NCBI GenBank assembly: GCA_030430575.1
Contig: JAUIKF010000031.1
Location: forward strand, 1-64,000
Direction of reading: 5' to 3'
Origin: Bacteroidia bacterium
Lineage (GTDB): Bacteria; Bacteroidota; Bacteroidia; J057
DNA: 64,000 bases
Shown: piece after piece, positions 13,974-33,113 of the stretch
Position numbering within the stretch: position 1 is the first letter of the stretch
Layout: every line of letters begins with the position of its first letter
Made by a program: the position numbers and the translations under genes
The notes under the pieces: generated by a model
Databases searched by the model: none
What the model was told of the DNA's origin: nothing
What the model saw: the letters and a program-made list of their open reading frames with translations, nothing else

Positions 13974-16691
13974 ATGAAAGCACCCCCTAAACGCAGACCC
14001 TTGCAGTTCCTGGTATTCTTTGCATTTCTGATTGCAGCGCTAGGTATGGCTGCCGTGAGTTATTTTGCTTACCAAAGTGTGGATCGCTTAGCAAATGACT
14101 TGAAGAAAAATGCAGGTCCCAATCTTTATTTCCGTGCACTTCAGGAAGTGATTTCTGGCGTTACTAAGGCAGAGGCCAGTGTGCGGTCTTTTACGATTAC
14201 CCAGGACGACGTAATGCTGGATCCTTATTATGAGGTGGTTGGAATCATTGATGATAAGCTAGAAGCACTCAATGAGTTTTCTAGCCAGGAGACAGAAATG
14301 GATAGCATCAATTCCCTCACAGAAACGAAGTTTCTTCTGATGGACAGCATTATCCGTGTGATTGAAAAAGGAGAACGGATTACCGCATTTGACAAACTAT
14401 ATAGAAGAATTGTTCGGGCAGAAAAAGACCCTCGCCTTAAACCTAAAGTGAAACCAAAGGCTGTTTCGATTGAGCCGCTTAGTACCATTTCTCCGCCCAC
14501 AGACACGATCATTTTCATGAATGATTCTGCTGAAACTATGGGAGATCAAGCCCAAATAGCGCAAGCAGAGGTGCCTGATAAGCGAGATAATAAAAAGCGT
14601 AGGCGGAAAAAAAAGAATATTTTCTCCATGATTTTTGGGAAAAGGGATAAAGGAGTAGTGATTGATACGCTTGCTGAAGATAGTGCAAGACGCGCTGTTG
14701 CAGCTATCTCCCAACCTTTTTCTATCGACTCTGCCCAAGCGCCCCCAGAAATCAACCCTTTGCCTAAAAGAAGGACCTCTTCTTCCAAAGATCTACTAAA
14801 AGAAATTCGAAGATCAGCTGAGGCATATAGTGAACAGGAAAATCAATTGTTAAAAGAACAAGCGCGTCTGATTCTCAACCTCACTAGGCAGGATGAGGTA
14901 GTCATGGCAAAGATGATGAGCATCCTTCGAAAGATGGAGCGCGATGAGCGCCAAAAGGGAGACAATGTCGCTTCAGAAGCATCCCGAGATGCAGACCGCA
15001 CTACAGGGTTTATGGCGGCTTTTGCCTTATTTGTGATCGTGATATTCTTGGTGCTGATGGTCATTATCCTGAGAGATATTGGGAGAAATAGAAAGATGCA
15101 GGTATTCCTGAGTCGTGAAAAAGCACGAGCAGAGAAATTCGCTAAGGCCAAGGAGGAGTTCCTGTCTAATATGAGTCATGAGATTCGCACGCCCATGAAT
15201 GCGATTATTGGGTTCACCGAACAATTGAACACAACACCTCTTAACCCCAAACAAAACCGTTATCTACAGACTGTAAGCCGTTCGGCAGATCACCTGCTTG
15301 CGCTTCTTAATGACATTTTGGATTATTCAAAATTGGGGTCCGGCAAGGTAAAACTGGAGCAATTGGCCTTCCGGCCGATGGATGTGCTCCGAGATGCCGA
15401 AGCCACCTTTACCCAAAGCGCCCATAAGAAGGGCCTAGAACTGCGCTTACTGCCTCCAGAGGATGTGCCAGAAGTGATTCAAGGTGACCCGCTGCGATTG
15501 AAGCAAATGTTGTTTAACCTACTGAGCAATGCCATCAAGTTTACAGATGAAGGGGAAGTAACCATCCGAGCCAAAGGAGCTACCTTTACCAATAATGAAT
15601 GCCTGTTAGGCATTTCCGTCAAAGATACGGGGATCGGTATCCCCGAGGAAAAGCAGGCGCAGATATTCATCGATTTTGAACAGGCAGACTCAAGTACGAC
15701 ACGGCAATATGGGGGGACGGGCCTTGGCCTTTCCATTACCAGAAAGCTAGTAGCTTTACATGGCGGTGAACTATTGCTTGATAGTGAGGCAGGTGAATGG
15801 ACAGAATTTACCCTTTTGATTCCCTATCAGCTAGGAGATGAGGCAGACCTAATGCCCCAATTAAAGACCTATTCGGGATCCTTTGACGCGCTTAAAGGTA
15901 TGCAAGCCTTGGTGGCGGATGATGAGCCATATAACCGCGAGCTTGTGGCTATTATTTTGGAAAAATGGGGCGTGGAGGCAGATTTTGTTGAAAATGGACA
16001 AGAAGCCTTCGATCATGCCGCTGATAGCGCCTATGACTTTATTTTGATGGACTTACAGATGCCTATTATGGGCGGTATAGAAGCTACCCAAAAAATAAAA
16101 CGGGAGCTAGAAGGGGAGAGACCTATCATTGGTCTGACAGCTACTTCTACACCGATTGAGGTGGAGCAGGCCCTAGCGGCGGGGATCGATGCGCACATGT
16201 TGAAGCCATTTAAGGAAGCAGAACTTTATGAATTGCTATTGGATAAACTCCATATAGAACATGACCATGATAACGCAGGAGATATAGATGAACCGGATGA
16301 ACCACAAGCACCCGAATTACCTGAAATGATAGATAATGATCGGCCTTATGACCTCAAAGCCATATTTGAACTTGGGAACAACGATGAAGCTTTTGCCCTT
16401 CGGATGTTGCGCATTTTCCACGAAAATACCCATGCAAACCTCGCTGTTATGAAGGAAGGCTTAGATACGGAAAATTGGACAGATGTGGGGTTTGCTGCCC
16501 ATAAAATCATCCCACCTAGCCGTCATTTGGGGCTAAATGATTTAGTGGATCAATTGAAGGAAATTGAATTAGCAGCTCAAGAAGGCGCCATTGGGAATGG
16601 ATTCCACGCCCAAGTGGAATCGGCTTATGGGGAGCTGCTGATGGTGCTGGATGCTGTTGCAAAGGATTTGGAGGAAATAGGACAGGATTGA
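13974..16691 (+). CDS. Tripartite hybrid sensor histidine kinase (HisKA-HATPase-REC-Hpt)
   Basis: 905 residues from ATG 13974 (GTG 13956 is an alternative). Two membrane helices (about 12-35 and 345-367) enclose a long helical sensor region with a Lys/Arg-rich stretch (KRRRKKKN). Then come HisKA with His402 (NMSHEIRTPMN), HATPase (GGTGLGLSITRK), a receiver with Asp693 (FILMDLQMP) and a C-terminal Hpt domain with His843 (AAHKIIPPSRH). This is a BarA-type phosphorelay that needs a separate response regulator, none of which lies nearby. The last codons (IGQD-stop) are read from a GACAGGATT repeat, so the native C-terminus may have been altered by the neighbouring repeat element. Confidence 0.9.
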   Translation: MKAPPKRRPLQFLVFFAFLIAALGMAAVSYFAYQSVDRLANDLKKNAGPNLYFRALQEVISGVTKAEASVRSFTITQDDVMLDPYYEVVGIIDDKLEALNEFSSQETEMDSINSLTETKFLLMDSIIRVIEKGERITAFDKLYRRIVRAEKDPRLKPKVKPKAVSIEPLSTISPPTDTIIFMNDSAETMGDQAQIAQAEVPDKRDNKKRRRKKKNIFSMIFGKRDKGVVIDTLAEDSARRAVAAISQPFSIDSAQAPPEINPLPKRRTSSSKDLLKEIRRSAEAYSEQENQLLKEQARLILNLTRQDEVVMAKMMSILRKMERDERQKGDNVASEASRDADRTTGFMAAFALFVIVIFLVLMVIILRDIGRNRKMQVFLSREKARAEKFAKAKEEFLSNMSHEIRTPMNAIIGFTEQLNTTPLNPKQNRYLQTVSRSADHLLALLNDILDYSKLGSGKVKLEQLAFRPMDVLRDAEATFTQSAHKKGLELRLLPPEDVPEVIQGDPLRLKQMLFNLLSNAIKFTDEGEVTIRAKGATFTNNECLLGISVKDTGIGIPEEKQAQIFIDFEQADSSTTRQYGGTGLGLSITRKLVALHGGELLLDSEAGEWTEFTLLIPYQLGDEADLMPQLKTYSGSFDALKGMQALVADDEPYNRELVAIILEKWGVEADFVENGQEAFDHAADSAYDFILMDLQMPIMGGIEATQKIKRELEGERPIIGLTATSTPIEVEQALAAGIDAHMLKPFKEAELYELLLDKLHIEHDHDNAGDIDEPDEPQAPELPEMIDNDRPYDLKAIFELGNNDEAFALRMLRIFHENTHANLAVMKEGLDTENWTDVGFAAHKIIPPSRHLGLNDLVDQLKEIELAAQEGAIGNGFHAQVESAYGELLMVLDAVAKDLEEIGQD

Positions 16692-16715
16692 CAGGATTTG
16701 CAGGATCAATAGGAT
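16681..16715 (+). repeat. Left inverted repeat of the GxxExxY module
   Basis: The segment begins GACAGGATTGACAGGATT and continues TGCAGGAT. Its reverse complement, with a 9-bp-longer spacing, recurs at 17101-17135 on the other side of the GxxExxY gene. It overlaps the stop codon of the hybrid kinase gene. Confidence 0.75.
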
Positions 16716-16730
16716 GATTAGTTGGATAAA

Positions 16731-17102
16731 ATGGATGATAAATTAACTTATGAGATTATTGGGGCTGCTTATGAGGTACACAAGGTGCTCGGGGTTGGAT
16801 TTTATGAGAAAGTGTATGAAAATGCGATGGTGATTGAGTTAGGGAAGCGGGGGTTAGAAGTGAGACAACAATATCCAATTCCTGTTTTCTATGAAAATGA
16901 ATTGGTAGGAAATTACTTTGCTGATCTTATTGTTAATAGCGAAATAATTATCGAATTAAAGGCCGTACAGAATCTCCAGCCTTTATTTGAAGTCCAATTA
17001 GTCAACTATTTGCAGGGAACTGGAATGGACGTTGGCCTCCTTATTAATTTTGGCTCAAAAGTGGAAGTAAAGCGTAAATATAGACAATACAAGAAAAATT
17101 AA
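16731..17102 (+). CDS. GxxExxY protein (PDDEXK_3-like)
   Basis: 123 residues from ATG 16731. It contains the family signature GFYEKVY (G-x-x-E-x-x-Y) after GAAYEVHKVLG, and ADLIVNSEIIIELKA, a D...ExK pattern that led to classification with PD-(D/E)XK nuclease-like folds. No biochemical function is established for the family, which is scattered widely and patchily in bacteria. The gene is AT-rich relative to its neighbours and is enclosed by two inverted GACAGGATT/CAGGATTTGCAGGAT repeats that abut the ends of both flanking genes, which gives it the look of a compact mobile module. Confidence 0.85.
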   Translation: MDDKLTYEIIGAAYEVHKVLGVGFYEKVYENAMVIELGKRGLEVRQQYPIPVFYENELVGNYFADLIVNSEIIIELKAVQNLQPLFEVQLVNYLQGTGMDVGLLINFGSKVEVKRKYRQYKKN

Positions 17103-17135
17103 TCCTGCAAATCCTGGGAATCTTGTAATCCTGTC
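17101..17135 (-). repeat. Right inverted repeat of the GxxExxY module
   Basis: Read on the minus strand it begins GACAGGATTACAAGATTCCC and ends CAGGATTTGCAGGATT, matching the left repeat in inverted orientation. It begins within the stop codon of the GxxExxY gene and ends 2 bp before the stop of the LexA-like gene. Confidence 0.75.
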
Positions 17136-17137
17136 AT

Positions 17138-17947
17138 CTAATTCTTCATCTTCATCACTTCCTGCTGCAACTCCATCACAATGGAGGTAAGTCGCTCCAT
17201 AGAGATATCAGGATCGGGGAAGTCATTACTGATGAAGACTTTGGCTTTCCATATCTCACGGACTTCTTCGATGTCAACAGCATACTCGCCGTATGCGGGG
17301 TTATCGGAACGAAGTAGTAGGTTCCCATCGCCACCAGAGACGCGGTTAAAAACGCGTTTGTATACAACCCCTTCGTCTTTAGAAACTACTACATATGTTT
17401 CTCCATCCTTGACATCTCGGCTCCAGTCCTGGACGTATTCCCCTACGACTACTGTACCGGATTTCAAGGGAAGCATGGAGTCGCCTTTGATTTCAAATGC
17501 ACGATACGTACCACCGCCCAGCATGGGTAACTGGAATTTGGGAAGGTCTTCGATGTATTCTGGATCAGCATATCCATTGAGATAGCCAGCTGCTGCTTTT
17601 TGTTGGACAAACTCGATGTTCTCTCGGCCGTCATCATTGACGGTAATAGGAAGAACGCGCAGTTTGCGGCCTTCAATATCCAGGCGGCGCTGCTCGCGCT
17701 GGTCGATCAAGTCACTAGGATCTAGTTTGGTAATGTCTTCTTTTACCAAAAGGTCAATTGACACTTCAAAAAAATCGGAAATATTTTCCAGCGTTTCGTA
17801 CTTGGGCGTCGCACGGCACTCTTCATACGCACCGATAGAGGACCGGCGGATATTGAGCTTGTCGGCCAATTCTTGTTGGGTGAGGCCCTTTTTCTTCCGC
17901 AGGAACTTTAAGTTTTTGCCAATGGTGAGTTTGTCTTTTTCACTCAT
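17138..17947 (-). CDS. XRE-family HTH / S24 peptidase (LexA/CI-like) repressor
   Basis: 269 residues from the MSEKDKLTIGKNLKFL start (an upstream in-frame Met adds 14 residues). The N-terminal HTH_3 domain (about 7-62) reads GLTQQELADKLNIRRSSIGA. A linker has Ala-Ala-Gly (QQKAAAGYLNG), the type of site cleaved in CI/LexA proteins. The C-terminal S24 domain has the Ser of KGDSMLP and the Lys of GVVYKRVF as the catalytic dyad. Such proteins are self-cleaving repressors of stress or prophage genes; no prophage genes are present here, so a chromosomal stress regulon is more likely (inference). Three spaced TTAGYAAA repeats upstream suggest autoregulation. Confidence 0.88.
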   Translation of the reverse strand: MSEKDKLTIGKNLKFLRKKKGLTQQELADKLNIRRSSIGAYEECRATPKYETLENISDFFEVSIDLLVKEDITKLDPSDLIDQREQRRLDIEGRKLRVLPITVNDDGRENIEFVQQKAAAGYLNGYADPEYIEDLPKFQLPMLGGGTYRAFEIKGDSMLPLKSGTVVVGEYVQDWSRDVKDGETYVVVSKDEGVVYKRVFNRVSGGDGNLLLRSDNPAYGEYAVDIEEVREIWKAKVFISNDFPDPDISMERLTSIVMELQQEVMKMKN

Positions 17948-33046: not shown

Positions 33047-33113
33047 ACCATATAAGGCATATAAGAACATATAAGTTTCTCTTTCTTCTATGACCTTATA
33101 TGTCTTATATGGT
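33047..33113. repeat. ATATAAG inverted repeat
   Basis: ACCATATAAGGCATATAAG (33047-33065) faces CTTATATGTCTTATATGGT (33095-33113); 18 of 19 positions pair. It is a short palindromic repeat in the gap between the divergent membrane protein and dioxygenase-like genes. Confidence 0.75.

Follow-up and report, generated by a model that had tools for sequence, protein, structure and literature searches.

We analyzed a window of 64,000 nucleotides of DNA from a Bacteroidia bacterium, in which a GxxExxY gene (16734..17102, + strand) lies between a hybrid kinase gene and a LexA-like gene and is enclosed by two inverted arms. The left arm (16681..16710, + strand) consists of three units of the ACAGGATT word, GACAGGATT-GACAGGATTT-GCAGGAT, and the right arm (17098..17135, - strand) carries four inverted units of the same word and overlaps the GxxExxY stop codon. 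These limits were set by eye, with one extra word on the right; the inverted-repeat scan returned a 29-nt pair (16682-16710 and 17098-17126) that is 86% complementary and separated by 387 nt, in keeping with the preliminary description of one repeat standing inverted on both flanks. The window contains three occurrences of the pattern CAGGATN{2,4}CAGGAT, all within the two arms, compared to 0.03 expected from shuffles. For the start of the GxxExxY gene, the ATG at 16734 looks better than the mechanically assigned TTG at 16722. The hybrid kinase open reading frame (ORF) ends at 16691 with a TGA stop (16689-16691) inside the left arm, so that its final codons, CAG GAT TGA, are supplied by the repeat, as had been proposed. 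With the right arm reaching 17135 and the LexA-like stop occupying 17138-17140, the reported distance of 2 bp between them is also correct.

The window protein is assigned to GxxExxY by TIGR04256 (E=1.8e-41, 141.1 bits against a cut-off of 35) and by PF13366 (E=5e-42, 143.4 bits against a cut-off of 22), the latter being its sole Pfam match at E<=0.001. It contains the D-x9-E-x-K residues of the PD-(D/E)XK superfamily (D64, E74, and K76), which are invariant in an alignment of 60 relatives together with Q88 and G22/E25/Y28. An AlphaFold2 model (pLDDT 95) had SSO0001, lambda-type exonucleases, and Hjc among its structure matches (Foldseek/VIA). The match to SSO0001, which we take to be a Cas4, had a Foldseek E of 2e-4 and a Z of 9.9, and those to LHK-Exo and Hjc had E values of 5e-4 and 1.3e-3, respectively, the latter with a Z of 7.5 (a Z under 8 may reflect a common arrangement). 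The window protein thus belongs to the PD-(D/E)XK nuclease superfamily and is a putative nuclease, as the nuclease-like D...ExK signature had led the preliminary description to suppose. To our knowledge, GxxExxY genes have no established role, and the open-licence PMC literature yielded no relevant title on repeats at GxxExxY, TIGR04256, PF13366, or PDDEXK_3 genes. Among 198 genomes sampled from the window's phylum, 99 had at least one GxxExxY gene scoring above the cut-off. Copies are often partial or broken by stop codons, and the three to four paralogs compared in each of eight many-copy genomes are mostly distant (identity of 0.30 to 0.65, with one pair at 0.77). Carriage of the window protein by phages or plasmids was rejected: no match was obtained among 50,697 phage records (E<=1e-5), and 72,556 plasmid records contained 8 (E<=1e-8).

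The arms of the window are one instance of a widespread arrangement. At a score of at least 30, inverted arms were found at 66 of 115 GxxExxY loci of the window's phylum (0/345 shuffled and 2/221 with shifted geometry) and at 53 of 79 loci from many phyla, drawn from the best 80 of at least 536 relatives (0/237 shuffled and 0/140 shifted). The preliminary description had proposed looking for such repeats next to GxxExxY genes at large, and the enrichment is strong. The loci of the window's phylum include 29 new ones and 60 more from the best-scoring matches listed, mostly one per genome, and one further sample comprises the 30 best-scoring loci. Two loci have too little flanking sequence, one of the 115 (L076) being scored as a miss and one of the 80 (L170) being left out, and L009 and L126 are a single locus that was counted once per set. 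The arms are built from a repeated word about 9 nt long, with a period-9 autocorrelation of 0.45, compared to 0.27 after shuffling. Even at a score of 26, no arm match was obtained at 35 of the 115 loci and at 20 of the 79 (again from the best 80 of at least 536 relatives), and thus many copies are decayed, domesticated, or were never armed. In L010, L187, L157, and L160, two complete palindromes enclose the gene or the arms are reversed, so the limits of the unit are not uniform.

Elements are frequently located at gene ends, and some lie between genes of the same direction. The proposal that the repeats overwrite gene ends holds at the window element, and elsewhere it holds for part of the element sides only: a neighboring ORF stop lies 0 to 20 nt inside the outer arm edge at 36 of 203 sides and within 20 nt of the edge at 77 of 203. 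The corresponding gene-end shifted controls (8/171 and 11/201 values within the histogram range) fall mostly inside neighboring genes, and these comparisons are therefore uncorrected for the units being intergenic.

The word in the arms follows the clade of the protein. Distances between arm words correlate with distances between proteins with a Mantel rho of 0.41 (permutation maximum, 0.056). Selection of the arms by best score inflates the similarity within own pairs. The DNA immediately outside the arms has no link to the protein (rho of 0.00). When the words were grouped into four classes, which, like the counted outer caps, were defined after the arms had been seen, the classes required 8 changes on the protein tree over 118 loci, compared to a shuffled minimum of 47. 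The tree counts exclude 20 of the 138 armed loci, whose words matched no class. Among 50 named loci from 17 phyla (52 classed loci less 2 without a phylum name, from the best 80 of at least 536 relatives), word class required a single change and host phylum required 20, although many of these loci come from metagenome-assembled genomes and some host phyla may thus be binning errors. Related GxxExxY enzymes have the same word even across distant bacteria and archaea. Paralogs within one genome can also have one broad word type, such as the CRCNRAG-like arms in genome G158. The initial suggestion of CAGGATTTGCAGGAT as the word of GxxExxY genes at large did not hold up: it is confined to one clade, other clades have other words, and its use as a general GxxExxY mark is ruled out.

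Evidence of presence and absence comes from one orthologous site in a related genus. Among 30 loci at this site, 29 are unoccupied, with -6 to 22 nt separating the flanks, and the remaining one is the filled query locus. Among further alleles of the site, 13 of 20 contain about 500 nt with a GxxExxY gene from either of two clades, which are 37% identical and each have their own word. The gene and its arms differ together at one site, and the separate movement of gene and repeats that would have counted against the preliminary description was not seen there. For the window copy, no clean empty site was found in one other genome of the genus, in which the LexA-like gene (81% identical) adjoins a gene other than the kinase and no element is present. 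Across 102 loci, with arm edges only roughly known, target-site duplications of 3 to 6 nt showed no excess (for length 4, 42/102 compared to 37.8+-4.9; for length 5, 15 compared to 11.8+-2.9). The target-site duplication expected beside the inverted repeats of a DDE-type transposon or MITE was thus not seen above the null at these loci.

Palindromes without a gene carry the same kinds of words. In the window, a solo palindrome of the CATATAAGG word lies at 33047..33113 (no strand assigned) and is identical at 27 of 29 and 26 of 29 positions to the left and right arms, respectively, of a different GxxExxY element present in this genome (L007, on contig C28 of G000). The CATATAAGG pattern occurs three times in the window and not at all in shuffles, and its exact doublet was found at 1 of 391 loci, namely, L007. 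Clear amplification of solos was seen in one genome only, G001, which has gene-less palindromes and tandem palindrome arrays beside its own gene and in which the word of that gene gave 162 doublet hits, some of them overlapping. A search of G000 for empty sites of the G001 palindromes gave no usable match, the flanks being too diverged or repetitive. The possibility that the window's genome holds the ACAGGATT array in many copies was rejected, with 11 doublets there compared to 16 in a relative that has no GxxExxY gene. Exact ACAGGATT doublets were found in 2 of the 198 genomes, once in an apparently unrelated coding sequence, and the CAGATT doublet, from the word of a further element of the window's genome (L005), is absent from the window.

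These data suggest mobile DNA of a kind that is very small and has attracted little notice. Observed here were the arms and their link to the gene, the coupling of word to clade, presence/absence and exchange at one site, and matching solos. We consider it probable, with some reserve, that they reflect a minimal selfish module comparable to REPIN/RAYT systems, in which a small RecB/Cas4-like PD-(D/E)XK nuclease gene stands between inverted, clade-cognate arrays of an approximately 9-nt word. The earlier proposal is supported in part, as regards a small unit of gene and inverted arms, a nuclease-like protein, and a REP/RAYT-like organization with another enzyme. We infer that the GxxExxY protein would bind the word, cut, and drive the movement of the module. 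In such a mechanism, the two arrays would pair with each other, forming a cruciform or, on single-stranded DNA, hairpins, and the nuclease would recognize the word array and the paired structure and cut at the outer edge of the arms. The copy would then land at another site, often a gene end, where the outer arm cap could provide a stop codon and so allow the host gene to survive. Gene-less palindromes of the same word would be non-autonomous partners of the module.

Some of the same observations could have other causes. The arms may be palindromes spread passively through slippage or template switching during host replication or repair, with GxxExxY as a passenger or a palindrome-binding controller, for example in cruciform protection or resolution, and the nuclease not the driver. 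Genes of an unrelated four-helix-bundle family, which lack the nuclease, have the same arm layout with a 7-nt period, and the arms may therefore not depend on the nuclease at all; the tandem arrays next to the G001 gene resemble slippage products, target duplication is absent, and the predicted fold is Hjc-like and exonuclease-like. A passenger, however, leaves unexplained both the word-clade coupling over 17 phyla and the joint difference of gene and word at one site, and we regard this explanation as unlikely. Less likely still is an RNA-level element like the 23S rRNA intervening sequences (IVSs), in which a hairpin in the host transcript would be excised or terminate transcription and selection would act on RNA. 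The frequent position at gene ends, at times between same-direction genes, is consistent with it, as is the Coxiella IVS, for which part of one report describes a 28-bp terminal stem with tandem heptamers upstream of an S23p ORF (PMC4990558). Yet arm mismatches on the gene strand at 132 GxxExxY loci show no G-U-tolerant excess (134 compared to 121, p=0.45), and an RNA helix under selection was rejected for these loci on that ground; at 19 four-helix-bundle loci the wobble imbalance runs the opposite way (13 compared to 27, p=0.04). Word conservation across phyla is also better explained by recognition of the sequence than by pairing alone, no Rfam family reached the gathering score in L354, L389, or L010, and only subthreshold Rfam matches were obtained around the window element.

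It is very unlikely that GxxExxY is a chromosomal defense or toxin gene whose arms are recombination scars allowing swaps between genomes. One site is indeed occupied by two clades in different genomes, the copy in G001 lies between cas4 and cas1, and weak PADLOC matches to Cas4, at 9e-5 or weaker, were obtained for three of four GxxExxY proteins (three of the five proteins besides that of the window). Against this, the window protein has no PADLOC family at E<=0.1, its gene has no companion in the unit, and same-word palindromes exist without it. A chance inverted repeat next to an ordinary gene has a negligible probability and was ruled out by the 86% complementary pair, the pattern count, and the enrichment at GxxExxY loci.

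Beyond the nuclease-driven module itself, a wider proposal is conceivable, although we hold it with somewhat less than even confidence: that these are self-spreading modules of about 450 nt and represent a new class of mobile DNA, with 9-nt-periodic, clade-specific arrays read by a stand-alone RecB/Cas4-like nuclease that mobilizes itself along with gene-less palindromes. The four-helix-bundle elements, with a 7-nt grammar and including rRNA IVSs, would be a second, independent branch, and the pairs of nuclease and word would amount to a natural specificity code over bacterial and archaeal phyla. If the word is read by the protein, many natural nuclease-target pairs could be predicted from sequence and tested directly. 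Such modules would also account for some of the short periodic palindromes in genomes and would give rRNA IVSs a wider family of free-living relatives.

Several known systems share parts of this organization. Cas4, the lambda-type exonucleases, and Hjc are the closest folds to the window protein model, but sequence identity in those matches is 12 to 18%, and the GxxExxY unit contains no CRISPR or phage recombination genes. Rpn nucleases also have the PD-(D/E)XK fold and, like GxxExxY proteins as predicted here, are nucleases, but the window protein belongs to PF13366 and has no PF04754 match at E<=0.001. In the portions consulted of two reports, Rpn (YhgA-like, PF04754) nucleases are tied to DNA mobilization or phage defense (PMC5350276, PMC10327210). 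The Coxiella 23S rRNA IVS, according to the available part of its description, has tandem heptamers at the end of a long terminal inverted repeat around the S23p ORF (PMC4990558), and it resembles the window element in having a small ORF within such a repeat and short tandem repeats at its end. However, the four-helix-bundle protein S23p is unrelated to GxxExxY, the arm period is 9 rather than 7, and there is no RNA-wobble signature; with a GxxExxY gene located between protein genes, not S23p in rRNA, the window copy was rejected as a 23S rRNA IVS.

The closest parallel is with RAYT/REPIN systems, in which, according to sections of two reports, the enzyme gene stands beside palindromes of its own class, gene-less palindromes are dispersed, and a genome can hold several distinct enzymes (PMC3116915, PMC8266576). 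The enzymes differ, RAYT being an HUH tyrosine nuclease and GxxExxY a predicted PD-(D/E)XK protein, and the window protein had no HUH/Y1 tyrosine nuclease match in Pfam at E<=0.001. GxxExxY arms are arrays of 9-nt words, in contrast to single REPs with a GTAG tag, and a high copy number of palindromes was seen in G001 only. As in REPIN/RAYT systems, the GxxExxY gene is flanked by palindromes of its own class, and genomes hold distinct paralogs; gene-less palindromes are numerous in G001, are represented by one solo in the window, and for the ACAGGATT word do not exceed the baseline in the window's genome. If the word is read by the protein, these elements would represent a RAYT-like partnership with an unrelated enzyme.

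The GxxExxY gene of the window (positions 16734 to 17102, plus strand, 369 nt; profile matches to TIGR04256 at 1.8e-41 and PF13366 at 5e-42) lies between two inverted arms, which an inverted-repeat tool placed at 16682 to 16710 and 17098 to 17126 (29 nt, 86% complementary). Read by eye, the left arm consists of three copies, and the right arm of four, of the word ACAGGATT or close variants, at steps of about 9 nt. In the preliminary description, the left arm contains the end of the kinase reading frame, and the LexA-like frame stops 2 bp beyond the right arm; the sequence and the ends of both open reading frames bear this out. It also proposed looking for such repeats beside GxxExxY genes in other genomes. 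We took 300 nt on each side of a gene and locally aligned one side to the reverse complement of the other, using score thresholds of 30 and 26. In a phylum set of 115 loci (4 from the window's genome, 22 from its genus and family, and 89 from the phylum, the last among the matches listed), 66 reached a score of 30 and 80 reached 26. With shuffled downstream sequence, the corresponding counts were 0/345 and 6/345, and with the geometry shifted by 1 kb they were 2/221 and 6/221. Among the 79 testable loci of the best 80 of 536 relatives of the window protein, all from named genomes, 53 scored at least 30 and 59 at least 26, compared to 0/237 and 5/237 for shuffled and 0/140 and 1/140 for shifted controls. 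Inverted arms thus occur far above both types of control in both sets, and we found no prior description of this association in open-licence PMC papers. Arm periodicity peaked at a lag of 9 (0.45 versus 0.27 when shuffled; 119 loci), and at some loci, such as L010 and L187, two whole palindromes enclose the gene. Two GxxExxY genes stand in tandem at a single place in L074 (G104:C4) and in L114 (G042:C1). In Bacteroides finegoldii (L307, NZ_OY725952.1), the gene lies right behind radA with CACAGAGGACGCAGAG arms (score 45); this plasmid record carries thrA and radA and may be a chromosomal fragment.

The four GxxExxY matches in the window's genome, which include one partial gene, have three different words. 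Across 138 loci with arms, protein distance correlated with arm 5-mer similarity at a rho of 0.41 (maximum of 300 permutations, 0.056), compared to 0.00 for the DNA just outside the arms and 0.09 for the coding ends. On a tree of 118 proteins, from which the 20 of 138 armed loci fitting none of four word classes defined after the arms had been seen were left out, 8 changes sufficed to explain those classes, while the minimum of 200 label shuffles was 47. Fifty named loci, 46 bacterial and 4 archaeal, represent 17 phyla and are among the best-scoring relatives listed; 35 of them have ACAGGATT and 15 have CRCNGATT. On their tree, the word required one change (shuffle minimum, 9), while host phylum required 20, although many of these records are metagenome-assembled genomes and some hosts may be misassigned. 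Because of this difference, we conclude that the word goes with the protein rather than the host. Some likeness of words could come from linkage alone, but adjoining DNA loses its likeness over such distances.

The same coupling can be viewed at one site, between methionine-aminopeptidase-like and methyltransferase-like genes (identified from their translations), in genus g15 of the window's class. A query joining the two flanks of one element had a match in 149 of the 150 genomes of this genus. All but one of the 30 loci retrieved were empty, their flanks being separated by -6 to 22 nt; the exception was the filled query locus. Among 20 further alleles picked for split flanks, CACAGAG/CACAAAG-type arms accompanied one GxxExxY clade in seven, CACGAATT/CACGGATT-type arms accompanied another clade in six, and the remaining seven were shortened, gene-less, or occupied by another gene. 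Protein identity was 92% and 91% within the two clades and 37% between them (six proteins per clade compared), and the closest relatives of each clade at other places mostly have the matching arm type. Since each clade at the site has its own arm type, gene and arms differ there as one unit, whether by insertion, replacement, or recombination. In one allele (L246, G310:C1:5664376-5666732), a gene for an AAA-type ATPase (by translation) replaces the GxxExxY gene and adjoins a remnant of the left arm.

Palindromes of the word also occur without a gene. The ACAGGATT doublet pattern has 162 occurrences, overlapping ones included, in another genome of the window's genus (G001), versus 1 to 34 in 12 other genomes of the family; examples are palindromes of 70 to 80 nt, both dispersed and as a tandem array adjoining the gene. 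The window's genome has 11 such doublets, no more than a relative without GxxExxY genes (16). Another word, CATATAAGG, makes up a 67-nt gene-less palindrome (33047 to 33113) in the window itself. At 27/29 and 26/29 positions, the arms of this palindrome are identical to those of L007, a GxxExxY element located on a different contig of this genome; of 391 loci examined, L007 alone contains the exact doublet of the palindrome. In G001, a ACAGGATT element with a tandem palindrome array (L126 852-4985, equal to L354, G001:C2) is located between cas4 (TIGR00372, 6e-22) and cas1 (TIGR03641, 1e-134), and an open reading frame through the array is continuous with the cas1 frame. An inverted repeat roughly 200 nt long (query 2475-2675) is also dispersed in G001, with dozens of matches, and a 30-nt core of this repeat is present in the window's genome as well.

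The outer ends of the arms often lie close to gene ends. On 77 of 203 sides, the outer arm edge has the stop of a neighboring open reading frame (300 nt or longer) no more than 20 nt away, in 36 cases 0 to 20 nt inside the arm; shifted controls gave 8/171 and 11/201 within the histogram range. Part of this signal simply reflects the intergenic position of the units, because the shifted controls lie mostly inside genes. Stop codons are present in outer caps such as TAGAC, TTAACC, TTTGAC, and TCTGAA, although 174 of 264 ends have none of the caps listed, a list made after the arms had been seen. Target-site duplications did not exceed the null at 102 loci, and arm mismatches showed no G-U preference on the gene strand (134 versus 121; P = 0.45). 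The lack of both signals disfavors a classical DDE transposon as well as selection on an RNA helix.

Four-helix-bundle genes (TIGR02436; L031-L036 and L258-L287) have the same layout. Inverted arms enclosed 19 of 36 loci at a score of 30, best-scoring loci included, compared to 0/108 shuffled and 0/72 shifted controls. However, their arms follow a 7-nt grammar (lags 7 and 14, 0.52 versus 0.32) rather than a 9-nt one. In Coxiella, the 23S rRNA intervening sequence, whose reading frame is of the S23p four-helix type, is reported to have a terminal stem of 28 bp as well as heptamers in tandem (PMC4990558), which fits this 7-nt grammar. One architecture shared by two unrelated proteins is the strongest reason for retaining a different explanation, which we regard as improbable: that host replication or repair spreads the arms as passive palindromes, with the GxxExxY gene as passenger or controller and its nuclease not driving movement.

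The reading that we prefer, in which the nuclease acts on its own arms, owes its weight to the coupling of word to protein and to the exchange at one site, and it also draws on the predicted fold. An AlphaFold2 model of the window protein (mean pLDDT, 95; input alignment of 60 relatives) matched SSO0001, LHK-Exo, lambda exonuclease, Hjc resolvases, and splicing endonucleases. In a second structural comparison, SSO0001, which we take to be a Cas4 (the match table gives SSO0001 only), had a Z score of 9.9, while every other row was at or below 8.6, near the tool's "middling" grade. All 60 aligned sequences share G22, E25, Y28, D64, E74, K76, Q88, and G101, and Y92 is nearly invariant; D, E-x-K, and Q-x-x-x-Y are marks of RecB-type nucleases.

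In the working that we propose, the nuclease would recognize its own word array once the arms have paired and would cut at the outer arm edge; copies would often settle at gene ends, where a cap could replace the stop codon. The coupling of word to protein is observed, whereas recognition, cutting, and movement by the nuclease are suggested by analogy with REPIN/RAYT systems (PMC3116915 and PMC8266576). The preliminary description likened the unit to REP-associated elements with another enzyme. That likeness holds for the proposed mode of action, which may resemble that of a REPIN/RAYT pair, but does not extend to membership: REPIN/RAYT systems use an HUH enzyme, and the GxxExxY unit is not one of them because it has none.
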